Assembly (NCBI GenBank): GCA_024742285.1 | Contig: JANSYR010000004.1 | Span: 186,001 to 250,000, forward strand | DNA: 64,000 nucleotides | Reading direction: 5' to 3' | Source of the DNA: a bacterium | Lineage (GTDB): Bacteria; Myxococcota_A; UBA9160; UBA4427 | Shown here: positions 5,628 to 61,952 of the stretch, one piece after another | Position numbering within the stretch: position 1 is the stretch's first letter | Layout of the letters: each line of letters opens with the position of its first letter | The notes under the pieces: generated by a model | The model's input: only the letters and a program-made list of their open reading frames with translations | Told to the model about the DNA's origin: nothing | Database searches by the model: none | Made by a program: the position numbers and the translations under genes

Positions 5628-6017
5628 TCAATCCTTCCGCGGGGTCGCGGTCTCGTCTTCGTCTTCCGTCAGGATGTCCGCCAGGCCCGCGTTCTCGCCG
5701 GGTCCCTCGCTCGCATCCCCTTCTTCAGGAGCCGGCGGTTGCGCGTCCGTCTCGCCCGTCCCGTCACCGTGGAGCTGCTTGCCCAGGCGAACGAGTCGGA
5801 GCACGAAGGCCGCGAACCCGATTCCTGCGCCGACGAGAACGCCGGCGGGTGTCGTTTCGTAGTGTTGGTCGAACCAGTATCCGAAGAGCGTCGCGATCAG
5901 GATCGCGCCGACTGCTTCGAAGGCGCCCTCGTACGCGCGACCACCGGGTGCCCCGGACAGCCGCTCGACTTTTTTCTCGAGCTGTCGACGACCGGGATAT
6001 TCCGGGGGCGAACTCAC
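5628..6017 (-). CDS. AtpZ/AtpI-family small membrane protein
   Basis: The chosen start is a GTG at 6017, preceded by the strong site GAGGGGGAG; the open frame reaches further upstream but that part is low in complexity and overlaps the hemL side. The 129-residue product has two transmembrane helices (ILIATLFGYWFDQHY and PAGVLVGAGIGFAAFVLRLV), the classic AtpZ two-helix fold, then an acidic disordered tail. AtpZ proteins sit at the head of F-ATPase operons and have been linked to Mg2+/Ca2+ transport with AtpI. Here it begins the minus-strand atp cluster. Confidence 0.78.
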   Translation of the reverse strand: MSSPPEYPGRRQLEKKVERLSGAPGGRAYEGAFEAVGAILIATLFGYWFDQHYETTPAGVLVGAGIGFAAFVLRLVRLGKQLHGDGTGETDAQPPAPEEGDASEGPGENAGLADILTEDEDETATPRKD

Positions 6018-6111
6018 GCGGGCTCCCCCTCGAGACCCCGCGCGACGAGCGGGTGCCGCCCGGCGAAGTCCCGAAATTCGGCGCGCAAAGTAGCCGTTCA
6101 GGCCCCTTCGC

Positions 6112-7416
6112 TCAACGCAACCGTGCGACGCGGTCGAAGGCGATTTCCGCCGCGTCGAGGGTCTCGGCGATGTCCCGGGGACGGTGGGCCAGGGACACGA
6201 ATCCGGCCTCGTAGGCGGACGGCGCGAGATAGATCCCCTCGTCCAGCATGGCGGAGAAGAAGCGCTTGAAGGCGGCTGCATCAGATTGCTGCGCCTGGGC
6301 GAAGTCGTCGACGGGACCCGTGTGGAAGAAGAACCCGAGCATCCCGCCGACGTGGCGCGCGGTGAACGGGATGTCCCGGGCCTCGGCCCGCTTCGAGAGG
6401 CCCTCGACGAGGGCTCCGGCCCGGGCCGAGAGGATCTCGTAGGTACCCTCGGCCTCGAGGAGCGCCAGGGTCTGGAGCCCCGCGGCGACGGCGAGGGGAT
6501 TCCCGGAGAGGGTTCCGGCCTGGTAGACGTCGCCCGCGGGTGCGATCCGGTCCATCAGGTCCCGCCGACCGCCATACGCCGCCGCCGGCAGGCCGCCCCC
6601 CACGACCTTGCCGAGGGTCGTGAGGTCGGGCTTGACCTTGTAGAGCCGCTGGGCGCCGCCCGGCGCGACCCGGAAGCCGGTCATCACCTCGTCGAAGATC
6701 AGCAGGGCGCCGAACTCGTCGCACAGCTCGCGGAGACCCTTCAGGAACCCGGGCACGGGCGGGATGCAGCCCATGTTGCCCGCGATGGGCTCCACGATGA
6801 TCGCGGCGATGTCCTTTCCCCACTTCTCGAACGCTTTCCGCGTCGCGGCGAGGTCGTTGAAGGGCGCCACGATCGTCAGATCGGTCATCGCCTTCGGCAC
6901 GCCCGGCGACCCGGGGATGCCGAGTGTCGCCACACCGGACCCCGCGCCGACCAGGAGGCCGTCGGAATGACCGTGGTAGCAGCCGTCGAATTTCAGGATC
7001 CGGTCGCGGCCCGTCACCCCGCGCGCCAGCCGGAGGGCGCTCATCGTCGCTTCGGTCCCGGAGCTCACCATGCGGACCTTCTGGACGGAGGGCAGCGCCC
7101 CGCGGATCGCCTCCGCGAGGTCGGACTCCCGGACCGTGGGCGCCCCGAAGCTCGTCCCGAGCTTCATCGCGTCCCGCACCGCCGCGAGCACCTTCGGATG
7201 GGCGTGCCCCAGGATCATCGGTCCCCAGGAACCCACGTAATCGATGAACTCGCGGCCATCGATGTCGCGGAGCCGGCAGCCCCTGGCCGACTCGACGAAG
7301 GGCGGCGTGCCGCCCACGGATCCGTACGCACGTACCGGGCTGTTCACACCGCCCGGAATGCTGCGCTTGGCGCGGGTGAACTCGCGCTTCGAGGCGGAGG
7401 GACGCTTGGGGCTCAT
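6112..7416 (-). CDS. hemL: glutamate-1-semialdehyde 2,1-aminomutase
   Basis: PLP enzyme converting glutamate-1-semialdehyde to 5-aminolevulinate in the C5 pathway of tetrapyrrole synthesis. The N-terminus [20 protein letters not shown] is diagnostic; the PLP lysine is in [17 protein letters not shown], and the cofactor-binding segments [16 protein letters not shown] and [11 protein letters not shown] are intact. The 434 residues match the family. It sits 43 bp downstream of gyrA and 94 bp upstream of the AtpZ-like gene on the same strand. Confidence 0.97.
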
Positions 7417-44805: not shown

Positions 44806-46242
44806 ATGGCGAAGCGCCGAACCGTCCACGCCTGCCAGGCCTGCGGTGCCCAGCATCCGCGCTGGCACGGCCGCTGCCCCGACTGCGGGCAGTGGGACAG
44901 CCTGGTCGAGGAGACCTACGCGGCGCCGAGTGCGAAGGAAAAGGGGACCGGGCGCGGGGCGAACGGCCTGGCGGCGCTGGTCCCGGCGGCCGACGACGAG
45001 AAGCCGAGGCGGCTCGGCGAGATCGATGCCGACGCGAGTCCGCGGATCGCGTCGGGCGAGGGCGAGCTCGACCGGGTGCTCGGCGGCGGCTTCGTGCCGG
45101 GCTCGGTCGTGCTGCTCGGCGGGGATCCGGGAATCGGCAAATCGACCCTCGCGCTCCAGGTCGCCGGCGGGCTCGCGGCGGCGGGACAATCGGTGCTCTA
45201 CGTGAGCGGTGAGGAGAGTGCGGAGCAGATCCGGCTGCGCGCGGAGCGCCTGCCCGGGCTCGGCTCGGACATGCAGGTGCTGACGACGACGCGGGTCGAG
45301 GCGCTGGCCGGTCCCTGGCAGGAGCTCGCCCCGAGCTTCGTCGTCGTCGACTCGATCCAGACGATCCAGACCGACGCGATCGAGAGCGCCGCGGGCTCCG
45401 TCGCGCAGGTACGCGAATCGGCGGCGCAGCTCGCGGCGACGGCGAAGAAGGTCGGCTCGGTGCTGCTCTTGATCGGACACGTGACCAAAGAAGGAAGCCT
45501 CGCCGGGCCGCGCGTGCTCGAGCACCTCGTCGACGTCGTGCTGACCTTCGAAGGCGATCGGGCCCATGCATTCCGTCTCCTGCGAGCCGCGAAGAATCGT
45601 TTCGGCTCCACCCAGGAGATCGGCGTGCTCACGATGGCGGGTCACGGGCTCGAAGCGGTGGAGAACCCGAGCGAGCTCTTCCTCGAAGAGCGGAGCACGC
45701 GGGCACCGGGGAGCTGCGTGATTCCCATGCTCGAGGGATCGCGTCCGATGCTGGTGGAGCTTCAGGCGCTCGTCGCCCCGGCGCCCTACGGGACGCCACG
45801 GAGGACGACGCTCGGACTCGAGGATGCGCGAGTCGCCTTGTTGCTCGCGGTGCTCGACCGGCGGAGTCCCGTCGACATCCTTTCCCAGGACGTCTACGCG
45901 AAGGCGGCGGGTGGGGTCCGCGTAGCGGAGCCGGCGGCGGATCTCGGGATCGCGCTCGCGATCGCTTCGAGTCGTCTCGACCAGGCGGTCCCGGCGGATA
46001 CCGCCGCCGTCGGAGAGATCGGACTCGGCGGCGAGGTCCGGCGGGTGTCGCGCCTCGACGTGCGCGTCGCCGAGGCGGCCCGGCTCGGCTTCAAGCGGTT
46101 GCTCGTTCCGGCGGTCTGCTTCGAGGAGCAGAGATCACGGGCGAAGGGGCGTCGGAAGGGAAGCGATCCGGTTTGCGAACTCGTTCCCATTGAAGAGGTG
46201 GCGCAGGCGGTCGACTGGCTTCGCGAGCACGGCGTCGGCTGA
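44806..46242 (+). CDS. radA: DNA repair protein RadA (Sms)
   Basis: Helps branch migration in homologous recombination. N-terminal C4 zinc finger (CQACGAQHPRWHGRCPDCG), RecA-like ATPase with Walker A GGDPGIGKSTLALQVAGG near residue 104, the RadA-specific KNRFGSTQEIGVL near 263 and a C-terminal LonP-like domain with VGEIGLGGEVRRV. 478 residues. It starts 149 bp from the BirA-like operator on the opposite side from bioB. Confidence 0.96.
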   Translation: MAKRRTVHACQACGAQHPRWHGRCPDCGQWDSLVEETYAAPSAKEKGTGRGANGLAALVPAADDEKPRRLGEIDADASPRIASGEGELDRVLGGGFVPGSVVLLGGDPGIGKSTLALQVAGGLAAAGQSVLYVSGEESAEQIRLRAERLPGLGSDMQVLTTTRVEALAGPWQELAPSFVVVDSIQTIQTDAIESAAGSVAQVRESAAQLAATAKKVGSVLLLIGHVTKEGSLAGPRVLEHLVDVVLTFEGDRAHAFRLLRAAKNRFGSTQEIGVLTMAGHGLEAVENPSELFLEERSTRAPGSCVIPMLEGSRPMLVELQALVAPAPYGTPRRTTLGLEDARVALLLAVLDRRSPVDILSQDVYAKAAGGVRVAEPAADLGIALAIASSRLDQAVPADTAAVGEIGLGGEVRRVSRLDVRVAEAARLGFKRLLVPAVCFEEQRSRAKGRRKGSDPVCELVPIEEVAQAVDWLREHGVG

Positions 46243-46295
46243 GACCGTGCGACGAATGCGTCGAGTCGTTGCACCCGATCTTCGAGAACGCTGGT

Positions 46296-46307
46296 AAACG
46301 TACGTTT
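46296..46307. promoter_or_regulatory. 12-bp palindrome upstream of the prenyl synthase promoter
   Basis: AAACGTACGTTT, perfectly self-complementary, followed by a run of T. It lies 28 bp upstream of the -35 box. It may be an operator or part of an AT-rich UP element; also within reach of the radA 3' end. Confidence 0.45.
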
Positions 46308-46334
46308 TTGAAGCGTTTTTGGAGATTTCCAGCT

Positions 46335-46363
46335 TTGACACCCGGTTTGGGCGCGGCTAGATT
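46335..46363 (+). promoter_or_regulatory. strong promoter of the polyprenyl synthase gene
   Basis: Perfect -35 TTGACA (46335-46340), 17-bp spacer, -10 TAGATT (46358-46363). Transcription should start near 46370, at or next to the ATG at 46371, so the mRNA is predicted to be leaderless. Confidence 0.7.
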
Positions 46364-46370
46364 GCCCGGC

Positions 46371-47435
46371 ATGTCACGCCCCCTCTTCGACGCCGCCAAC
46401 GAATCGCCCGCTTCTCTCGAGGAGAGTCTCGGTCTCGCCTTCCAGCGGATCGGTCCGGCGATGGAGCTGGTCGAAGTCGCGCTCCGCGACACGGTCGAGT
46501 CCCGCTCGCAGGTCGTCGGCGACGCCGGGAACCACCTCCTCGACTCCGGCGGCAAGCGGCTGCGCCCTGCCCTCGTGCTCCTCGCGGCCGAGCTCTGCGG
46601 CTACACGGGTCCGCGGCGGATCGAGCTCGCGGCCGCCCTCGAGCTCCTCCATACGGCGACCCTCGTCCACGACGACGTCGTCGATCTCGCGGACGTCCGT
46701 CGCGGTCGACCGTCGGCGAACGCGATCTGGGGAAACCGGCGCGCGGTCCTGGCGGGCGACTTCTTCTACGGCCGCGCTTCGTCGATCGTGATCCAGGACG
46801 GAAACCTGGCGATCGTCGAGAGCTACGCGGAAGCGATCCGGCTCCTGGCCGAGGGCGAGCTGCTCCAGCTCGAACGGAGCTTCGACGTCGACATCACGGA
46901 GAAGCACTACTACGAGGTGATCGAGCGGAAGAGCGCCGCGCTGCTCGCGACCTGCTGCGAGATCGGCTCGCTGCTCGGCGAGGTCACCCGTGGCGAACGC
47001 AACCGGATCACCGAGTTCGGCAAGCAGCTCGGAACCGCCTTCCAGCTGAAGGACGATTGCCTCGACTACAAGGCCGACCTCGCGACCATGGGCAAGGCCC
47101 CCTTCGCCGATCTGCGCGAAGGCAAGATCACGCTTCCGCTGATCCTGACGCTGAAGCGCGCCCGGGTCGCCGAGCGCGATCACGTGGCGAGCGTCCTGAA
47201 GAGCGCCGCGCGACTGGCGGACGAACACGGCGGCAAGGCGCCCGAAGGTGCGCCGGAGCTCGAGTTCGAGGAGATCGCCTCGCTCGTCGATCGCCATCAC
47301 GGCGTGGTCGATACCCAGAAGCGCGCCGAGGAACACATCGGCCGGGCGCTCGAAGCGATCGCGCCCTTCCCGGACGGCCCCGCCAAGGAAGCGCTCTTCG
47401 CGGCGGCGAAGTTCTCGGTCCTCCGCGATCGCTGA
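46371..47435 (+). CDS. ispB: polyprenyl (octaprenyl-type) diphosphate synthase
   Basis: Trans-type isoprenyl chain elongation for quinone side chains. GGKRLRPALVLLAAEL near residue 56, the first Asp-rich motif HDDVVDLADVRRGRPS near 100 and the second KDDCLDYKAD near 223 are intact; residues before the first Asp motif (HTATLVHDD) lack large aromatic side chains at the chain-length position, consistent with a long product, though the exact length cannot be read. 354 residues. The ATG lies about 7 bases after the -10 box; no Shine-Dalgarno is seen. Confidence 0.9.
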   Translation: MSRPLFDAANESPASLEESLGLAFQRIGPAMELVEVALRDTVESRSQVVGDAGNHLLDSGGKRLRPALVLLAAELCGYTGPRRIELAAALELLHTATLVHDDVVDLADVRRGRPSANAIWGNRRAVLAGDFFYGRASSIVIQDGNLAIVESYAEAIRLLAEGELLQLERSFDVDITEKHYYEVIERKSAALLATCCEIGSLLGEVTRGERNRITEFGKQLGTAFQLKDDCLDYKADLATMGKAPFADLREGKITLPLILTLKRARVAERDHVASVLKSAARLADEHGGKAPEGAPELEFEEIASLVDRHHGVVDTQKRAEEHIGRALEAIAPFPDGPAKEALFAAAKFSVLRDR

Positions 47436-47516
47436 ACGCATGGGTCGCCTGCGGCTCATCGTTCGCCGGCGAGCGCTCGGCGAACAGGGTGCTCGCCCGA
47501 CGTTCCGGAATTCCCC

Positions 47517-47915
47517 GTGAAGAGATTCGCCCCAGGTCCCGGGGAGATCGATTCCATGTCCTCCATCCACACGGGTGCCTCGCGGTCGCGTTCAGGCGCT
47601 TTTCGGAACGTGTTCGCATTCCTGCTGGTGGCGTTCATTCTCGGCTTCGGCGGAACCTCCGCCGTGGCCGCGGATGCGAAGAGCCCCCTCGACCTCAACG
47701 CAGCGACCGCCGAGCAGCTCGAGGCGCTGCCGGGGATCGGCGAGGTGAAGGCAGCGGCGATCCTCGCGGTGCGCGCGGAGCGCGGCGGCTTCCGCTCCGT
47801 CGACGAGCTCGAGAGCGTGCGCGGGATCGGGCCGGCGCTGCTCGGCAAGCTGCGCGGTCAGGTGAAGGTCGGGCCGCCCCGGGGCGGTCAGGCCCGGAAG
47901 GTCGCCACGAAGTGA
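47517..47915 (+). CDS. exported ComEA-type helix-hairpin-helix protein
   Basis: A signal peptide (ending AVAADAK) precedes the classic helix-hairpin-helix pair LDLNAATAEQLEALPGIGEVKAAAIL and DELESVRGIGPALLGKLR, then a basic tail. This is the minimal ComEA form, which binds DNA non-specifically in the periplasm and acts in natural transformation in other bacteria. A GTG at 47517 gives 132 residues; the ATG at 47556 (MSSIHT) is a plausible alternative. No other competence gene is adjacent. Confidence 0.85.
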   Translation: MKRFAPGPGEIDSMSSIHTGASRSRSGAFRNVFAFLLVAFILGFGGTSAVAADAKSPLDLNAATAEQLEALPGIGEVKAAAILAVRAERGGFRSVDELESVRGIGPALLGKLRGQVKVGPPRGGQARKVATK

Positions 47916-48033
47916 GAGCGGACCGCCGGGGCCTCGTGCTCCGGCGGTCCTGCAGCCCGATCCACGCCGAAAATGCCGGGTTCGGGCGTGCCGACTATGA
48001 TGGGCCGGCTCCGGCGGCGGGGCCGCGCGCGCT

Positions 48034-49071
48034 GTGCGCCGAGTCCGAGCCGCCTGCGACCGGACGCCACTCCCTCGGGCGCCCGCGCCAGAGGCCCCCT
48101 TGGTCCCGCTCCCCCGAAGCTCTCAGCGACCGAACGAAGTCCGTCCGCACCTCCTGGCGCCGGCGGCGGTCCTGGTCCTGGTCCTATCCGCGCTCTGCGC
48201 GCCGGCGCCGGCCGCTGCGCGCGAGGACGGGCGGCCTCCCCTTCCCCGCCTGATCTCCCTCAACCCGTCGTTGACTTCGATCATCGTGCGCCTCGGCGCG
48301 GCGTCGGCGCTCGTCGGGGTCGACGACTACTCGGCGCAGGTCGTGCCCGAGGTGGCCGATCTTCCCCGCGTCGGGGGCCTCTTCGATCCGAGTCTCGAGG
48401 CCGTGGTCGCGCTCGGTCCCGACCGGGTGCTGCTCGTGGCCGGGGTCGATCAGGAGGGACACGCTTCGCGACTCACCCGCGCCGGCGTCGCGGTCGACGT
48501 CTACCAGAACGAGCGTCTCGGTCAGGTCCTCGAGAACATCGAACGTCTCGGACGACTGCTCGGCCGCGAGACCGAGGCCGCGGCGCGAATCGCCGCGATC
48601 CGAGCCATGCAGGCCGCGGTCGAGATCGCCACGGCGGCTCGCCCCCGGCCGACGGCGATCGCGGTCGTCGATCGCTCGCCGCTCTACCTGGTCGGGCGCG
48701 ACACCTTTCTCGACGAGATGCTGGCGGCGGTCGGAGCGGAGAACCTCACGCAGTCACTGGCACCGGGCTATCCCCGCGGCTCGATCGAATGGCTGATCGC
48801 CGCGCGCCCGGAGCTCGTGCTCGACATGACGCCGGGCGCGTCGGAGGCTCGCGCCTTCTGGAGCCGGTGGCCGAGCCTGCCCGCGGTCGCGAACGGTCGG
48901 GTCGTGACCGTCGAGGCGAGCCGGGTGAGCATGCCGGGGCCGGATCTCGACGCCGCGATCCGTGCGCTCGCGATCCTGGTGCACGGCGAAGAGATCGCTT
49001 CGCCGATCGACGCGGCGCTGACCGAGGCATCGACCGGGGCCCCCGACGCCCTCGCGGAGCCGGCTCCATGA
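48034..49071 (+). CDS. periplasmic metal-chelate (BtuF/FhuD-type) binding protein
   Basis: Class III solute-binding protein of ABC importers for cobalamin or siderophores. A signal-like region (about 40-62) follows a basic N-terminal extension from a GTG start; the start is uncertain. The first lobe carries RLISLNPSLTSIIVRLGAAS and LVGVDDYS, followed by the long helix GLFDPSLEAVVALGPDRVLL linking the lobes. The second lobe ends near AILVHGEEIASP. The ATG of the permease overlaps its stop. Cobalamin is the likelier cargo (BtuF-like gene order), but iron chelates are possible. Confidence 0.8.
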   Translation: MRRVRAACDRTPLPRAPAPEAPLVPLPRSSQRPNEVRPHLLAPAAVLVLVLSALCAPAPAAAREDGRPPLPRLISLNPSLTSIIVRLGAASALVGVDDYSAQVVPEVADLPRVGGLFDPSLEAVVALGPDRVLLVAGVDQEGHASRLTRAGVAVDVYQNERLGQVLENIERLGRLLGRETEAAARIAAIRAMQAAVEIATAARPRPTAIAVVDRSPLYLVGRDTFLDEMLAAVGAENLTQSLAPGYPRGSIEWLIAARPELVLDMTPGASEARAFWSRWPSLPAVANGRVVTVEASRVSMPGPDLDAAIRALAILVHGEEIASPIDAALTEASTGAPDALAEPAP

Positions 49072-50092
49072 TGCGCCTCTCGCGATCCCGGCTCGTCTTC
49101 GTCCTCGGCGGGCTCGTCGCCGCCGTCGGCGCGATCACCCTCGTGGCGCTCGCGACCGGCCCCTCGGAAGTCGGCTGGTCGGACGTCGTCCGGATCGTCA
49201 CGGGCGAATCGAGCGAGGTCGATGCGGCGACGCGGGACATCGTGCTCCGGGTACGCGGCCCGCGGGTGGTGCTCGGGCTTCTGGTCGGTGCGGCGCTCGC
49301 CACCGCGGGCGCGGTCTTCCAGGCCCTGCTTCGCAATCCACTGGCCGATCCGTACGTCCTCGGCGTCTCCGGCGGCGCGGCCCTCGCGGGCATCTCCGTG
49401 CTCGCGCTCGGAACCGCCTTCGCGCTTCCGACGTCTTCCGTTCCGATGGCGGCGTTCGGCGGCGGTCTCTTCGCGACGGCGCTCCTCTATTGGGTCTCCG
49501 GCGGTCGCGGTCGCAGCTCGCCGACGGGGCTCCTCCTGACCGGCGTCGTCTTCAATGCCTTCGCCTCCGCCGGGATCGTCTTCCTCGCCTCCGTCGCCGG
49601 CTTCTTCGAGGGCTCGCGCATCTTCCTCTGGCTGATCGGGCACCTCTCCGCCGTCGAGATCGACGCGGTCGGCGTCGTCGGCGCGAGCGTCGTGCTCGGG
49701 CTCGTGACCGCGTTCCTGCTCTCGCGCAGTCTGAACCTGCTCGCGCTCGGGGACGAGTCGGCGTCGCATCTCGGTGTCCCCGTCGAGGCCCATCGGCGAT
49801 GGCTGCTGCTCGCCACGTCGCTGATGGTCGGCGCCGCCGTCGCCGTCTCCGGGCTGATCGGCTTCGTCGGATTGATCGTCCCGCATTCGCTCCGCCTCAT
49901 GATCGGCAGTGACCACCGTCTCCTGCTGCCGGCGACGGCGCTGACCGGCGCGGGCTTCCTCGTCCTCTCGGACACCGTCGCGCGGACCGTGCTCGACGGG
50001 CGGGAGCTTCCGGTGGGCGCGGTGACCGCGATCGTCGGCGGGCCGCTCTTCATCTACCTGCTGCGGCGCGCGCAGGCGCGGGGTCCACTGGC

Positions 50093-50096
<4 letters not shown>
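49068..50096 (+). CDS. FecCD/BtuC-family ABC transporter permease
   Basis: About ten transmembrane helices in 342 residues. The family signature ALLRNPLADPYVLGVSGGAALAG lies near residue 85; GFVGLIVPHSLRLMIGSDHR in the second half is the ATPase-coupling loop. Two ATGs in tandem (49068, 49071) overlap the stop of the binding-protein gene. The stop overlaps the ATPase gene start. Confidence 0.92.
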
Positions 50097-53335
<3,239 letters not shown>

Positions 53336-53452: not shown

Positions 53453-53578
53453 TCATCGGCAAGTGATGCGCAGGAAGCGCGCAGCCCGTAGCGCGCCCGT
53501 CCTGCCCGACCCGAATTCTCCGTCCCTGGTGTGGGGCAGCGGCGGAGTTCCGGGTCGAACAATCCGGAATCTTTGGAA

Positions 53579-54181
53579 ATGGCGAACCAGCAGACTCTCA
53601 ACATTCTCGTCGTGGACTCGGAAGAAGAGGCCCGCCTACAGCTGAAGGACGTGCTCACCGAGCAGGGCTTCGGCGTCACCACCCTCTCCGAGCCGCTCCG
53701 CGCGCCGGAAGAGGTCCGACAGAATCGCTTCCAGATGATCGTGCTCGACGTCTCGCCCGGGAGCGGGGGGACCGAAGCGCTCGCGGCGATCCGCGGCTTC
53801 GACGACGACATCTGCGTGATCGCGACGACCGGCGTGGCCTCGGTCGAGGCCGCGGTCGCGACCATGAAGCACCAGGCGTTCCACTATCTCCAGAAGCCGA
53901 TCGACAACGACGAAGTCCTCGCCGTCGTCCAGGAGGCGATCAAGGATCGCGGACTGCTCGTGGACCTCGAGACCCACCTCAATACCGAGGTCGGTCGCCG
54001 CATCCGCGCAAAGCGTCACGAATCCGAGCTCACGCTCAAGCAGCTGGCCAATCGAACCGGTCTGTCGGTCAGCCTGATCTCCCAGATCGAGCTCGGCAAG
54101 AGCGCCGCCAGTATGTCGACCATGCACAAACTGGCCGCCTCGCTCGGTGTCCGAATGACGTACTTCTTCGAAACGATCTGA
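53579..54181 (+). CDS. receiver domain fused to XRE-type helix-turn-helix regulator
   Basis: The N-terminal 125 residues are a CheY-like receiver: VVDSEEEAR acidic pair, phospho-acceptor Asp in MIVLDVSPGSGG, Thr in VIATTGVAS and Lys in YLQKPIDNDEV. The C-terminal 65 residues are a Cro/C1-type helix-turn-helix: LTLKQLANRTGLSVSLISQIELGK, then SMSTMHKLAASLGVRMTYFF. Receiver-XRE fusions are much rarer than OmpR or NarL types. No sensor kinase is adjacent. The ATG at 53579 gives 200 residues. A terminator-like hairpin follows. Confidence 0.9.
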   Translation: MANQQTLNILVVDSEEEARLQLKDVLTEQGFGVTTLSEPLRAPEEVRQNRFQMIVLDVSPGSGGTEALAAIRGFDDDICVIATTGVASVEAAVATMKHQAFHYLQKPIDNDEVLAVVQEAIKDRGLLVDLETHLNTEVGRRIRAKRHESELTLKQLANRTGLSVSLISQIELGKSAASMSTMHKLAASLGVRMTYFFETI

Positions 54182-54298: not shown

Positions 54299-54336
54299 CA
54301 TCACGCCCTCAGGCCTTTGGGTCTGGGGGCGTAATG
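54299..54336 (+). terminator. terminator-like hairpin before the aldolase gene
   Basis: A 17-bp imperfect stem (one mismatch, two G-U pairs) with a TTTG loop; the right arm ends GGGGGCGTAATG and is followed by CGTTTCT. It overlaps the ATG at 54334, which argues against that codon as the real start of the aldolase. Confidence 0.5.
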
Positions 54337-55518
54337 CGTTTCTGGGGCCCGAATCCGGGGCGCTCGCGAGCCCGCTATCATGCGTCCGCGCGCGGACCTC
54401 GCGCGGAGGATGCTTCCATTCGTTCCGTAGAGACTTCACGACCGAAGCCCGGGTTGTCGGTTCCGGTGCTTTCCATTCTCGACGAGGAGGGGAAGCTGAT
54501 CGAGGAGGATCAGCGGGCCCTCGTGCGTCACGTGGTTCAGGACGGGTACGGGGCGGACATCCTCTTCTCGGCGGGGACGACCGGGGAGTGGGACAAGGTC
54601 GACAACGCGACGCGGCAGGCGGTGATCCGGGTCTGTGCGGAGGAAGTCGCCAAGCTCAATCTCGGGCTCGTCTCGAACGGGTCGAGCGCGGTCGAGAGCT
54701 GGGCGGGCGTCACGGCGCCGACGGCGGGGGATACGCTCGCGAACCTCGAGCATGCGATCGACTGCGGGGTCGATGCGGCGGTGATCGCGCCGCTCTCGAT
54801 CGAGGGCGTGGCCGATCCGGTGCGCTTCATGCTGCGTGACGTGTCGGATCTGCTCGACACGAAGATGCGCCGCATTCCGATCTTCCTCTACGACAACGCC
54901 GATATCGCGATCGACCCCGCCGTGCCGCACATTCGCACGAAGCAGGTGAAGGCGATGAGCCGGCTCGACTTCGTGCGGGGGATCAAGGTCTCGGCGTCGA
55001 ACAAGGTGCTCGGCAACTACACGCGCGCGGCCAAGAGCTTCAAGGATCGCGGCGAGTTCGGGATCTACGTCGGGAACGCGAAGCTGATCTTCGACATCTA
55101 CCGTCCCTACCAGGGCTTTTTCGGCGTGATCCAGGAACACTGGGATCGCTGGCGGCGCGCGGGCGGGATGCCCGTCGGTGTCGTGGCGGGGCCGGCGAAC
55201 GCCATGCCGCGCGAGTGGGCCTACGCGTGGCAGGTCTGCCGCGCCGGTGACGAGGAGCGCATGGAGGCGGCGCAACGCGTGGTCGATGCGTTCCGGGATC
55301 TCTGCGTGGTGGCGAGCGGCAAGCGCACGCTCGCCTGTCTCAAGCGGGCACTCTACGCCGAAGGCGTGATCTCGAGCCCCTGCGTGGCGCCGGGCACACC
55401 GGAGCTCGCGCCTGGCGAAGCCGAGGATTTCGATGCGAAGTTCGCCGTGCTCAAGGAGACGACGCGGCGCGAGCTCGGGGAAGTCGCGATGACGCGCTTC
55501 GAGAAGAGGATCGACTGA
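54334..55518 (+). CDS. DHDPS/NanA-superfamily aldolase
   Basis: A class I aldolase of the dihydrodipicolinate synthase/N-acetylneuraminate lyase family. SAGTTGEWDKV (the GTTGE motif) is near residue 79, and the Schiff-base Lys is in RGIKVSASNKV near 217, followed by YVGNAKLIFD. Such enzymes cleave or form 2-keto(-3-deoxy) acids using pyruvate. The annotated ATG lies in a terminator-like hairpin, and the first 40 residues are not family-like; a start near 54418 (ATT with GGAGGA upstream), 54454 (TTG) or 54466 (GTG) is likelier. It is followed one base later by the kinase-isomerase fusion, suggesting a shared catabolic route. Confidence 0.85.
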   Translation: MRFWGPNPGRSRARYHASARGPRAEDASIRSVETSRPKPGLSVPVLSILDEEGKLIEEDQRALVRHVVQDGYGADILFSAGTTGEWDKVDNATRQAVIRVCAEEVAKLNLGLVSNGSSAVESWAGVTAPTAGDTLANLEHAIDCGVDAAVIAPLSIEGVADPVRFMLRDVSDLLDTKMRRIPIFLYDNADIAIDPAVPHIRTKQVKAMSRLDFVRGIKVSASNKVLGNYTRAAKSFKDRGEFGIYVGNAKLIFDIYRPYQGFFGVIQEHWDRWRRAGGMPVGVVAGPANAMPREWAYAWQVCRAGDEERMEAAQRVVDAFRDLCVVASGKRTLACLKRALYAEGVISSPCVAPGTPELAPGEAEDFDAKFAVLKETTRRELGEVAMTRFEKRID

Positions 55519-55519
55519 C

Positions 55520-57166
55520 GTGACGGACTCCGGAGCGACGGACGAAGAGAAGCTCGAGCTCGTCGGCATCGGCAGCATGGTCCTAGACCGCATGCACCGG
55601 ACCCGGCGCGTGCTCGGACCGAACGAGAAGGGCCTGCTCGACGACGTCGACTCGGGTGGCCCGGTCCAGACCTGCATCGGGGGCGTGCTGCTGAACCAGG
55701 CCGGCTGGGCTGCGCTCTTCGGTGCGCGCGTCGGCCTCTTCGGGCGGCAGGCGGACGACGACGCCGGACGGACGCTGCGCGCCGCCATGAAGCAGGCAGG
55801 GATCGAGACGAGTCTCGATCTCACCGGCAGCGCCAGCTCCCTCGCCGAGATCTTCGTCGACGCCGAGGGCGAGCGGGCGATCTACATGGCCGCGGGCGCC
55901 ACGGCGGAGACGACCCCCGCCCACGTGCGCGACGACCACGCGGACTTCATCGCCCGCGGCGAACGGCTCACGACCGAGGTCTCGCAGCTGCCCCTCGACA
56001 CGACCCTCGAGGCGCTTCGGGTGGCCCACGAGCGCGGCCTCGAGACCGTCGTCGACCTCGACGTGTTGCCGAGCGATGCGGTCCAGGGGCTCGGTGATCG
56101 AGAGACCCTCGACGCGGTCCTGCGCGAGGCGGATCTGCTCAAGCCGACCGCCCTCGCGGCGCGCGAGCTCTTCCCGGAGATCGATGCGCTCGAAGCGCTC
56201 GTCGCGGCGATTCGCGAGGCGTACGACATCGCGACGGTCCTGCTGACCGACGGCGAGCGGGGGGCGCTCTGCAGCGACGCGAGCGGTACGCGATGGATCG
56301 CGGCCTATCCGGTGCGCACCATCGTCGACACGACCGGCGCCGGGGACGCCTTCTTCGGCGGGTTCCTCGCCGGGCAGGCGCTCGGACTCGACGTGGACGA
56401 GGCCGCGAAGCTCGGAAACGCGTGCGGGGCGGCGTGCGTCGAACGGATGGGCGCGTTTCCCGAGGCCGCCGATGCGCTCCGCGCCCGGGCGATCGAGCTC
56501 TACGACGGCGCGACGCCGACCGACGAACGGTGGGCCTCGCTGACTGCGCGCGCGACGACCGAGTCCGTCCCGGGCGCCGCGGGGCGCCGCGTGCTCGACG
56601 TGGCGGCGCGGGAGCTCGGCGCGCTGGCGGAGCGACACGACGGTGTGTCGCTCCAGGCGGCGGCGGAGCTGATCGAGGCGGCGGAGGCGGCGGGCAATCG
56701 CGTGCACGTGACCGGCGTCGGCAAGCCCGAACACGTGGCGCACTACGGGGCGAGCCTGCTCTCCTCGACGGGCGTCCCGGCGACCTTCCTTCACGCGACC
56801 GAGTCCCTTCACGGCAGCCTCGGGCAGCTCGTGCCCGGCGACGTGGTGATCGCGATCAGCAACAGCGGGACGACCTCCGAATGCCTGCTCGCCGCCACCG
56901 CGATCCGCGGGTACGGCGGAAAGCTGATCGCCGTCACCGGCGGGCTCTCCTCACCCCTCGCCGAGGCGGCGGACGTGACCCTGGATGCGGGGGTGAAGGA
57001 GGAAGGCGGCCCGCTCGGCCTGGCGCCGCGCGCGAGCGTGGCGGCGGAGATCCTGGTGATCGCCGCGCTGGGGGCCGTCCTGCAGGAGCGCCGGGGGCTC
57101 GACCGAAAGGACTATGCCGCCCGCCATCCGGCGGGCGCGCTGGGGAAGCAGGCCCGGGGCGAGTAG
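55520..57166 (+). CDS. PfkB-type sugar kinase fused to a KdsD-like sugar isomerase (SIS) domain
   Basis: Two enzymes in one chain. Residues about 12-320 are a ribokinase/PfkB kinase: IGGVLLNQAGWAALFGARVG near 50 and the catalytic DTTGAGDAFFGG at 270-281. Residues about 350-548 are a SIS domain most like arabinose-5-phosphate isomerase: TGVGKPEHVAHYGASLLSSTG, TESLHGSLGQLVPGDVVIAI, SNSGTTSE, GGPLGLAPRASVAAE and ARHPAGALGK with the conserved His near 535. The CBS pair found in KdsD is absent. The order, kinase then isomerase, fits phosphorylation of free arabinose followed by isomerisation to ribulose-5-phosphate. 548 residues. Confidence 0.88.
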   Translation: MTDSGATDEEKLELVGIGSMVLDRMHRTRRVLGPNEKGLLDDVDSGGPVQTCIGGVLLNQAGWAALFGARVGLFGRQADDDAGRTLRAAMKQAGIETSLDLTGSASSLAEIFVDAEGERAIYMAAGATAETTPAHVRDDHADFIARGERLTTEVSQLPLDTTLEALRVAHERGLETVVDLDVLPSDAVQGLGDRETLDAVLREADLLKPTALAARELFPEIDALEALVAAIREAYDIATVLLTDGERGALCSDASGTRWIAAYPVRTIVDTTGAGDAFFGGFLAGQALGLDVDEAAKLGNACGAACVERMGAFPEAADALRARAIELYDGATPTDERWASLTARATTESVPGAAGRRVLDVAARELGALAERHDGVSLQAAAELIEAAEAAGNRVHVTGVGKPEHVAHYGASLLSSTGVPATFLHATESLHGSLGQLVPGDVVIAISNSGTTSECLLAATAIRGYGGKLIAVTGGLSSPLAEAADVTLDAGVKEEGGPLGLAPRASVAAEILVIAALGAVLQERRGLDRKDYAARHPAGALGKQARGE

Positions 57167-59219: not shown

Positions 59220-60272
59220 GTGGCGAGCGCTGCGCAGACCGCTCCGACCGGCCCCGCGACGCGGCCGGTTCCGGCGATCGTGACCGCCGGCGACAGCCGG
59301 GCGGCGAAGGCCGTCTACGGCAAGAGCAAGGTCTACCTGGAGGTCGACGGCCTGCCCCTCGTCGCCCACGTCGTGCGCGTGCTGCAGGACTGTCCGGAGA
59401 TCTCCGCGGTCTGGGTGGTCGGGGATCCCGGTCGCCTCGAGAGCGCCCTCGGCGGAAAGCAGTTCCGGGCGTCGCTCTCCAAGCCCCTCTACATCGTCGA
59501 GCAGCAGCGCGATCTGATCGCGAATTGCTGGGAGACCTATCGGCGGATCCTCGCGGACGACCCGACCCGGGGCCACGACCCCGTGAGCGAGGCGGACATG
59601 GACCAGGAGGTGCTCTTCCTCTCCGGTGACCTTCCCCTCGCGACGCCCCAGGAGATCTCGTCGTTCGTCAAGCAGGCGCGGGTCCAGGGCGACGATCACG
59701 TCCTCGGTCTCTGTCCGGCGGAGTCCCTCGACGTCTTCCGCCCGAAGCACGAGGGCGAGGCCGGAATCACCGTCGCCTACTTCAATCTTCGCGACGGTCG
59801 CTTCCGCCAGAACAATCTCCACTACGCCCGCCCGGCCCGGATCGGCCGTCGCGAGCGACTCGAGGAGATGTACGAGATGCGCCATCAACGGCGCTTCTGG
59901 AACATGTTCACGCTCACGCTGCGCCTACTGCTCGATCGCGTCGGCGGGCTGAAGATCGCGTTCCTCTTCGGGATGATGCACATGGCGGGCGTTGCGGACC
60001 GCAACGGCCATCCGCGCCTCGCGCGGATCCTGGCGCGCTCGGTGACCCTCGACATCAACCGCACGACCATCTGCAAGCTGCTCGACACGCGATTCTCCTT
60101 CGCCGTGACCGAGAGCGTCGGTCCGGCCCTCGACGTCGACACCGAAGAGGAATACGACGCGATCTGCGAGAAGTACGACGAGTGGATGGCGGAGCAGCGG
60201 GAACGGAGCGAACGACTCCACGGCCCGATTCCGCCGCGAATCGCGCCGCCGCAGGGAGAGACGGGTGTCTGA
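59220..60272 (+). CDS. MobA-like NTP transferase-family protein
   Basis: The N-terminus PAIVTAGDSRAAKAVYGKSKVYLEVDG is a variant of the AGGxSxRMG-x-K nucleotide-binding motif, followed by LPLVAHVVRVLQDCPEISAVWVVGD; FLSGDLPLATPQEI near residue 140 supplies the metal-binding Asp. It should activate a sugar, alcohol or cofactor phosphate with CTP, GTP or similar; the substrate is not evident. 350 residues, much longer than MobA, with a helical C-terminal half. GTG start one base after the dodecin stop; the end overlaps ygfZ by 8 bp. Confidence 0.78.
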   Translation: MASAAQTAPTGPATRPVPAIVTAGDSRAAKAVYGKSKVYLEVDGLPLVAHVVRVLQDCPEISAVWVVGDPGRLESALGGKQFRASLSKPLYIVEQQRDLIANCWETYRRILADDPTRGHDPVSEADMDQEVLFLSGDLPLATPQEISSFVKQARVQGDDHVLGLCPAESLDVFRPKHEGEAGITVAYFNLRDGRFRQNNLHYARPARIGRRERLEEMYEMRHQRRFWNMFTLTLRLLLDRVGGLKIAFLFGMMHMAGVADRNGHPRLARILARSVTLDINRTTICKLLDTRFSFAVTESVGPALDVDTEEEYDAICEKYDEWMAEQRERSERLHGPIPPRIAPPQGETGV

Positions 60273-61269
60273 GCACGAAGCGATCCAGGCCGTCCGCGAG
60301 CGCGCCGCGCTCTTCGACATGACCGGAGCCCGCGGACTGATCGAGGTCCGAGGGGACGACCGGACGCGTTGGCTGGACGGGATGATCTCTGGCGACGTGA
60401 CCCGACTCGACGCGGACGGCGAAGGCGCGGGGTGTTACGCGACGCTGCTGACGAATCGGGGCGCGATCGTGGCGGACCTTCACGTCGGCCGCATCGCGGA
60501 GACCTACCTGCTCGAGAGTCTCGGGAGCGAGATCCCGCGGATCATCGAGACCCTCGAGCGCCTGCTGATCGCCGACGACGTGACGCTCACCGATCGCAGC
60601 GGTGACTTCGCGACGCTCGGGCTCGAAGGGCGCGGCGCGCGTGCGATCCTGGCCGCGGCGGTGGAAGGCGAGGCGCCGGCGCCGGAGCGCTGGGCCGCGC
60701 TGGAGCTCGGCGGCGCCGACGTCCTGGTCGGCGCCTTCGGTTGGACGGGCGAGTCGGCGTTCCAGGTGCGCTGCGCGCCCGGCGATCGCGACGCCGTCGA
60801 GGCCGCCCTCGACGCGGCGGCCGGCCAGGCGCTGGTCCGCGGCGACGAGACGGCCCTCGAGATCCTGCGCGTCGAGGCCGGGGTTCCGGCGCTCGGACGC
60901 GAGCTCGACGAGGAAGTGCTGCCGCCGGAGGCGAGGCTCGAGCGCGCGATCGCGACCGAAAAGGGTTGCTATGTGGGCCAGGAGATCGTGGCGCGTCTGC
61001 GGGCGCGCGGGCAGGTCAATCATCTGCTCGTCGGTCTCGATCTCGAGCTCGAGGGGGCGGAGACACCGGAGGTCGGAACGGCGCTCTCGGCCGATGATCG
61101 CGAGACCGGCGAGCTGACGAGCGTCACCGTCTCGCCCCGCCGCGGACCCATCGCCCTCGGCTACGTCCGACGCGAACACGCCGAGCCGGGAACCGAGGTC
61201 TGCTTCGACGGAGGAACCGCGCGGGTCGTCGACCTGCCCTTCGTCGAGGTCGGCGAGGCGCCCGCGTGA
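60265..61269 (+). CDS. ygfZ: YgfZ/GcvT-like folate-binding protein (Fe-S cluster repair)
   Basis: The family signature KGCYVGQEIVARLRARGQVN is intact near residue 233-252 with the essential Cys. The N-terminus FDMTGARGLIEVRGDDRTRWLDGMISGDVT resembles GcvT; YgfZ proteins use folate to help maintain some Fe-S enzymes. 334 residues. The GTG start lies inside the previous gene, and its stop overlaps the next start (ATGA-like, 4 bp), so the operon is tightly coupled. Confidence 0.92.
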   Translation: MSEHEAIQAVRERAALFDMTGARGLIEVRGDDRTRWLDGMISGDVTRLDADGEGAGCYATLLTNRGAIVADLHVGRIAETYLLESLGSEIPRIIETLERLLIADDVTLTDRSGDFATLGLEGRGARAILAAAVEGEAPAPERWAALELGGADVLVGAFGWTGESAFQVRCAPGDRDAVEAALDAAAGQALVRGDETALEILRVEAGVPALGRELDEEVLPPEARLERAIATEKGCYVGQEIVARLRARGQVNHLLVGLDLELEGAETPEVGTALSADDRETGELTSVTVSPRRGPIALGYVRREHAEPGTEVCFDGGTARVVDLPFVEVGEAPA

Positions 61270-61952
61270 CGCGTGGCTGGCTGATCGTGTTCGCGAAGGC
61301 CCCTCGTCCAGGCCTCGTGAAGACGAGGATGGCGCCGCCGCTCAACCTCGGTCAGGCCGCCCGGCTCTACGAGGCGATGCTCGCGGACGTACTCGACGCG
61401 AGCGCGCGCTTCGCCGCCGCGCTCGATCTCGAGGCGGTGCTCGCCTTCCATCCCCCGGACGCGGTCGCGGAGATGATCGGGGGGACGCCGCCCGCGTTCC
61501 GGCTGCAGGTCCAGCGGGGTGTCGGGCTCGCGGAGCGAATGGCGAACGCGTTCGCAGAAGCGGCCGCAGCGGGGGCGCCCTTCGCGATCCTGCGCGGGAG
61601 CGACAGCCCTGGGCTGGAACAAGCGCAGATCGAGGCTGCAACCCTACATCTCGACGGGAGAGCCGATGTCGTTCTCACACCCGATGCGAGCGGAGGCTAC
61701 GCCCTCGTGGGTCAGCGCGCCCCCGATCCGCGGATCTTCGATGTGCCGATGTCGACCCACGACATGGTCGATCAGACGGTCGCGAGATGTGAGGCGCTCG
61801 GTCTCCGCGTCCACCAGACGAAACCCACGTTCGATCTCGATGAAGCCGGGGATCTGACCGCCCTGGATGCCTGGCCGCCGGAAAGATCGTCCGACCTTTG
61901 CCCCCTCACAGTCGAAGCGATCGCGGATTTGCGAAAATCTGGTGTGCTATAG
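61266..61952 (+). CDS. TIGR04282/DUF2064-family glycosyltransferase-like protein
   Basis: FAKAPRPGLVKTRMAPPL at the N-terminus and ILRGSDSPGLEQAQI in the middle are diagnostic for this family, followed by TPDASGGYALVG. Members often sit with arsenosugar genes or in sugar-nucleotide clusters; there is no arsS here, so the arsenic link cannot be assumed. 228 residues. It is the last gene of the dodecin operon; an extended -10-like sequence overlaps its stop. Confidence 0.88.
   Translation: MTRGWLIVFAKAPRPGLVKTRMAPPLNLGQAARLYEAMLADVLDASARFAAALDLEAVLAFHPPDAVAEMIGGTPPAFRLQVQRGVGLAERMANAFAEAAAAGAPFAILRGSDSPGLEQAQIEAATLHLDGRADVVLTPDASGGYALVGQRAPDPRIFDVPMSTHDMVDQTVARCEALGLRVHQTKPTFDLDEAGDLTALDAWPPERSSDLCPLTVEAIADLRKSGVL

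Follow-up and report, generated by a model that had tools for sequence, protein, structure and literature searches.

An aldolase paired with a kinase-isomerase fusion that takes the place of KdsD: a possible unit for Kdo cleavage and arabinose 5-phosphate supply

What is the role of a divergent sugar-acid aldolase whose usual partner is a KdsD-like isomerase? This question is raised by a locus in a Myxococcota genome of 6.5 Mb (G000), a lineage with deltaproteobacterial/Myxococcota MAGs as its nearest named relatives, from which one stretch of 64,000 nt was analysed (the window; coordinates are positions in it). The forward strand at 54334-55518 encodes, from an ATG, a 394-aa class I (Schiff-base) aldolase of the dihydrodipicolinate synthase/N-acetylneuraminate lyase (DHDPS/NAL) superfamily. 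A single base separates this reading frame from that of a 548-aa protein with a GTG start (55520-57166, same strand), in which a PfkB kinase is fused to a KdsD-type SIS isomerase. An earlier note on this DNA described the arrangement, called the fused kinase-isomerase unusual and proposed a route from 3-deoxy-manno-octulosonate (Kdo) to ribulose 5-phosphate (Ru5P). Both reading frames lie where it placed them, the Pfam, NCBIfam and fold matches agree with its description, and the fusion is indeed unusual. We found that the aldolase and the isomerase are a real conserved unit and that the isomerase, which has no CBS domains, appears to replace the canonical KdsD in the genomes that carry it. 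The proposed route, amended by a biosynthetic role of the isomerase, is the best available reading of the locus.

Among 84,980 species genomes scanned, we found 79 aldolase loci, distributed among Myxococcota, Binatota, Acidobacteriota and Planctomycetota. At 65 of these loci an SIS protein is encoded directly downstream, in 57 cases joined to PfkB (one of these truncated at the edge of its contig) and in 8 cases on its own; a 4-base overlap between aldolase and fusion is frequent. The fusion is thus not found mostly beside unrelated genes. Two further loci end at a contig edge, and the remaining 12 are mostly from Acidobacteriota, in which the unlinked aldolase gene is located after aroC, def, fmt and rsmB. 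Elsewhere in their genomes, these unlinked Acidobacteriota possess a PfkB-SIS fusion (e.g. G302, G304, G309 and G310) or a CBS-less SIS gene (e.g. G300, G301, G305 and G306). The class of G302 comprises 147 genomes, of which 25 carry the aldolase (G455 at 40% identity only). A CBS-less SIS was found in 20 of the 147, and all 20 are aldolase carriers (Fisher p 2e-20, a value inflated by relatedness within the class, since related carriers do not count as separate events). Other phyla show this association as well. Among 284 Myxococcota genomes, both the aldolase and the SIS occur in 43, the SIS only in 2, the aldolase only in none and neither in 239, the aldolase count being made after removal of one match at 8.8e-4. 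One of the two SIS-only genomes (G115) holds the fusion on a 3.7 kb contig that is cut at its start; the likeness of this fusion to the window's genus (77%) is unexpectedly high, and it is probably a contaminant. Because gene order and catalytic residues are conserved across phyla, chance is excluded as the origin of the arrangement. In two of the Acidobacteriota loci, the unlinked fusion follows a GlcD-like glycolate oxidase gene and an isocitrate dehydrogenase-like gene (L205:1744-3288 and 5893-6927; L207 is similar).

The assignment of the isomerase domain (residues ~354-544; 56579-57151) has good support. The domain matches the SIS family PF01380 with 63.6 bits, and its best NCBIfam match over residues 394-544 is kpsF, TIGR00393, whose cut-off of 203.7 bits is not reached (119.8 bits). 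Lys402, His431, Glu454, Glu495 and His536 correspond to Lys59, His88, Glu111, Glu152 and His193 of E. coli KdsD, and all five are conserved; these are the residues proposed for catalysis in the E. coli enzyme. In E. coli KdsD, two CBS domains come after the SIS domain; the present chain stops at the point corresponding to the end of SIS and therefore lacks CBS domains, as the earlier note had observed. Although KdsD/KpsF/GutQ (TIGR00393) is the nearest family by hidden Markov model, shares the five active-site residues and is replaced by this isomerase in the carriers, its members have CBS domains, whereas the isomerase described here is usually located behind a PfkB domain and is linked to an aldolase. 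In a tree of SIS domains, the aldolase-associated sequences, fused or not, form a single long-stemmed clade (SH-aLRT 97) that is separate from the canonical KpsF of the same groups. The best sequence match in the PDB is 5uqi, a CBS-less phosphosugar isomerase. Like the window protein, 5uqi/5vhu (annotated phosphosugar isomerase) and the capsule-associated 3etn are KdsD-type SIS proteins without CBS domains and are among the best PDB matches, but they are not fused to a kinase. Both have been linked to arabinose 5-phosphate (A5P) isomerase activity. It is very likely that the domain of the fusion is an A5P isomerase.

The distribution of Kdo synthesis genes is consistent with this assignment. 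The window's genome has KdsA and WaaA and therefore needs A5P, and the fused SIS is the sole KdsD-like protein found in it. In the window's order, KdsA is present in 37 of 41 fusion carriers, only one of which (G285) also has a canonical KpsF; in that genome, which shows 7% contamination, a second KdsA lies on the same contig as the KpsF. The SIS domain can thus be read as the A5P isomerase of this lineage. In the class of G302, a canonical full-length KpsF above the cut-off was found in 116 of the 147 genomes, and G455 is the only aldolase-positive genome among them. KdsA is present in 22 of the 25 aldolase carriers of that class and was undetected in G302, G304 and G343. Most KdsA-bearing carriers have no KdsD-family isomerase other than the CBS-less one, which therefore probably supplies A5P for synthesis as well, and a role in Kdo synthesis, rather than a purely catabolic one, is reasonably probable. 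Across the order, the fusion is associated only weakly with KdsA (p 0.07) and WaaA (p 0.05).

The kinase domain (residues 40-312; 55637-56455) matches PfkB PF00294 with 139 bits, and its closest folds are ribokinases; the AlphaFold2 model of the fusion has a pLDDT of 92. Asp276 of the catalytic GAGD motif is invariant. An alignment with E. coli RbsK shows equivalents of its Asp16, Gly41, Gly42 and Asn46 and of the catalytic Asp255, whereas Lys43 is lost and mostly replaced by Val; the substrate contact of the ribokinase E143 type could not be placed reliably in this alignment. The ribokinase equivalog TIGR02152 gives 104 bits, below its cut-off of 299.65. The domain thus shares the catalytic set of the RbsK/PfkB kinases but differs from them in its identity of 24-30% and in being joined to an isomerase. 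We somewhat favor a pentose-specific kinase. The kinase is dispensable, and the core of the unit is the aldolase and the isomerase, because the kinase is absent from 8 of the 65 adjacent loci (L134, L137, L143, L147, L150, L156, L177 and L178, in which an SIS-only protein takes the place of the fusion) and in G159 is encoded separately, on a different contig. By parsimony, the tree implies about nine switches between the fused and unfused states, with L176 scored as unfused although it is fused. The fusion was also considered as a necessary feature and was rejected, as lone SIS genes occupy the same position.

The aldolase itself is a divergent member of its superfamily, since the match to the Pfam DHDPS family PF00701 (34.2 bits against a gathering score of 22.1) is confined to residues 40-106, the N-terminal third. 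No PDB sequence was matched by phmmer at 1e-3. However, an AlphaFold2 model based on an alignment of 38 sequences (pLDDT 88.2) shows the whole DHDPS/NAL barrel: it superimposes on 4xky with a VIA-align Z of 34.9 (2.1 A over 293 residues, 22% identity) and on 5c54 with a Z of 34.5, and YagE, the 2-keto-3-deoxygluconate (KDG) aldolase of E. coli, is among its best fold matches. The GTTGE motif (residues 81-85; 54574-54588), the equivalent of the loop that binds the pyruvate carboxylate in DapA and NanA, pairs with GSTGE of NanA by hhalign, and its G81, T82, G84 and E85 are invariant among 38 relatives. The catalytic Tyr186 of the YDNAD motif (54889-54891), which pairs with the YN motif of NanA, and the Schiff-base lysine Lys218 of the RGIKVSA motif (54985-54987) are invariant as well, the latter also in a wider set of 20 sequences. 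With these residues kept, the enzyme is expected, by analogy with its superfamily, to bind pyruvate as a Schiff base. Residues ~1-28 are not conserved in most of the 38 relatives, so the start codon is uncertain.

The aldolase does not belong to a characterized subfamily, as none of the NCBIfam models of such subfamilies reaches its cut-off and those of KdgD and dapA are far below. NanA, DapA and YagE share the barrel and the GTTGE/Tyr/Lys catalytic set with Z values up to 34.9, but at about 20% identity, and the present chain is longer, has inserts and lacks both Asp191/Glu192 of NanA and Arg138 of DapA. Identity with the sialic acid lyase NanA was rejected: hhalign pairs IYVGNAKLIF with LYNGYDEIF of NanA, the region after strand 7 that binds the sugar chain, and places Ala249 and the variable Lys250 at Asp191/Glu192. 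Identity with DapA was likewise rejected, as Ile191 is found in place of Arg138, YDNADIA is found where DapA has YNVPSRT, and TIGR00674 gives 19.7 bits against a cut-off of 206 bits. The activity that we tentatively predict would be that of Kdo aldolase (EC 4.1.2.23). To our knowledge, this activity is a biochemical one with no settled gene, and we know of no settled gene for Kdo degradation. A search of a literature collection found no PfkB-SIS fusion, no KdsD fusion and no sequenced Kdo aldolase pathway. Kdo chemistry lies within the NAL superfamily: known NALs catalyze the reverse reaction, the condensation of D-arabinose with pyruvate to Kdo, with 1-1.5% of the activity that they show in their main reaction (PMC4016182).

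Taken together, the following scheme is proposed tentatively. The substrate of the aldolase would be a 2-keto-3-deoxy sugar acid, with free Kdo the likeliest candidate, which would be split into pyruvate and D-arabinose. The ribokinase-like domain would then convert D-arabinose to A5P, and the KdsD-type domain would interconvert A5P and Ru5P. The same isomerase would also supply A5P for Kdo synthesis, so that this A5P-centered salvage or catabolic unit would stand at the node between Kdo breakdown and synthesis. The choice of substrate comes from the partners, not from the aldolase: with an isomerase for A5P and a kinase of the pentose type beside it, release of D-arabinose fits most simply, and Kdo is the acid that yields this aldehyde together with pyruvate. 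Kdo or a close relative is on this ground a plausible substrate, held with slightly less than even confidence. The catabolic reading of the earlier note survives in part. Its link between aldolase, kinase and isomerase was upheld well outside the window, whereas the kinase falls outside the core, and the exchange of KdsD in KdsA-bearing genomes points to an isomerase that is probably not purely catabolic.

Three other explanations were weighed. The isomerase may simply be the KdsD of the lineage for lipopolysaccharide, with the aldolase acting on another 2-keto-3-deoxy acid (KDG or 2-keto-3-deoxy-pentonate) and the two genes paired through central pyruvate and pentose metabolism or through regulation. 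This explanation is unlikely, although it has points in its favor: the pattern of KdsD replacement is strong, the KDG aldolase YagE is among the top folds, and in Acidobacteriota the aldolase lies by itself next to rsmB/fmt/def/aroC. A shared pathway is favored over it by the tight operon with 4-base overlaps, by the absence of the genes as a unit and by their co-occurrence when unlinked, and the low scores of the KdgD and dapA models also argue against it. Still less likely, the trio handles a different sugar, in which case an aldolase or dehydratase would free another aldehyde and the PfkB-SIS protein would phosphorylate, isomerize or cleave the product. The FrlD kinase and the FrlB SIS deglycase act in this way on fructosamines and are a model for such a system. 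PfkB and SIS families take many substrates, the kinase lacks Lys43 of ribokinase, and the importer found in one family (see below) is of family 5, the peptide/opine/nickel type. However, the KpsF/GutQ character of the SIS domain is clear, all five residues proposed for KdsD catalysis are present in it, and in Acidobacteriota it stands in for KdsD. It is very improbable that the aldolase cleaves Kdo 8-phosphate to A5P and pyruvate, or synthesizes Kdo from D-arabinose and pyruvate and thereby tunes or bypasses KdsA: an aldolase-isomerase core with a dispensable kinase looks as if A5P were released directly, and KdsA was undetected in the three carriers named above, but these may be incomplete assemblies, most carriers have KdsA, the aldolase has no identified phosphate-binding motif, and we know of no Kdo-8-phosphate aldolase.

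Several observations weigh against the proposed scheme. Neither a residue nor a neighbor marks Kdo as the substrate of the aldolase, the usual genomic context is housekeeping (radA, ispA, comEA, btuFCD and enolase), and no Kdo hydrolase or transporter was found in the neighborhood of the pair, apart from the importer of family f11. Some carriers have no kinase. The aldolase occurs without a detected SIS in G303, G307, G308, G311 and G343, and the second SIS-only genome of the Myxococcota survey (G222) has the fusion near enolase without an aldolase. Eleven KdsA-positive relatives (G012, G066, G080, G099, G154, G197, G240, G250, G288, G290 and G291) have neither the CBS-less isomerase nor KpsF, which indicates that another source of A5P exists in the group. 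The carriers in each class are related, so genome counts overstate the number of independent cases. Finally, free Kdo can be reused directly by KdsB without cleavage.

The neighborhood of the pair was compared among relatives. In the sister family f11, a family-5 ABC importer lies upstream, in the order solute-binding protein, DppB, DppC, aldolase, (kinase-)isomerase. This operon supports the view that at least one lineage takes up a compound from outside and degrades it. Most known ligands of family-5 importers are peptides, nickel and the like, and the importer is therefore no proof of a sugar acid. The f11 loci (L043:5494-11021, L159:3925-10840 and others) are five-gene operons without a linked ATPase. 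A purely catabolic operon is not supported as a general interpretation, given the housekeeping neighborhood and the restriction of the importer to f11. In G099, G250, G197, G154 and G012, the pair is missing between kept flanks, namely enolase, a DUF gene and a receiver-helix-turn-helix (HTH) regulator on one side and a membrane protein and a nucleoside triphosphate (NTP) transferase on the other. This pattern is as expected if both genes are gained or lost together. In the window, the regulator (53531-54181, forward strand; PF00072 and HTH_3) is a response-regulator receiver fused to an XRE-type HTH, an uncommon domain pairing, and lies upstream of the aldolase. Its family is found beside the pair in several families and is also kept in relatives without the pair; it possibly regulates the two genes.

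Further away, 44806-53335 contains radA, ispA (polyprenyl synthase), a comEA-like gene, a btuF/C/D-like B12 importer, enolase and the DUF gene, a neighborhood conserved across the taxonomic order. At 59220-61952, overlapping genes encode a MobA-like NTP transferase, a GcvT-like folate-binding protein and a TIGR04282 'arsenosugar' glycosyltransferase-like protein (DUF2064), and this cluster is kept in relatives. A ferritin-like/AurF-like diiron gene, typed by Pfam, lies shortly downstream of the pair at L160:12005-13027; the proteins at L050:12095-13108 and L053:13038-14078 form a cluster of their own and resemble it by eye only.

Nearly every Gram-negative outer membrane contains Kdo, as does plant rhamnogalacturonan II, and KdsD is pursued as an antibacterial target. 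It is possible, on the doubtful side, that a pathway of Kdo degradation or recycling, with an isomerase shared with synthesis after displacement of KdsD, is widespread in Myxococcota, Binatota, Acidobacteriota and Planctomycetota. If so, the locus would provide a gene for Kdo aldolase, an activity known mainly from biochemistry, would predict how environmental bacteria recycle or consume Kdo, and would represent a displacement of an antibacterial target enzyme. The genes are expected to be annotated as 'dihydrodipicolinate synthase family', 'sugar kinase' and 'SIS domain protein'. Should the substrate prove to be another one, the co-occurrence of an A5P isomerase with an aldolase family spread over several phyla still marks a clear and testable annotation gap.

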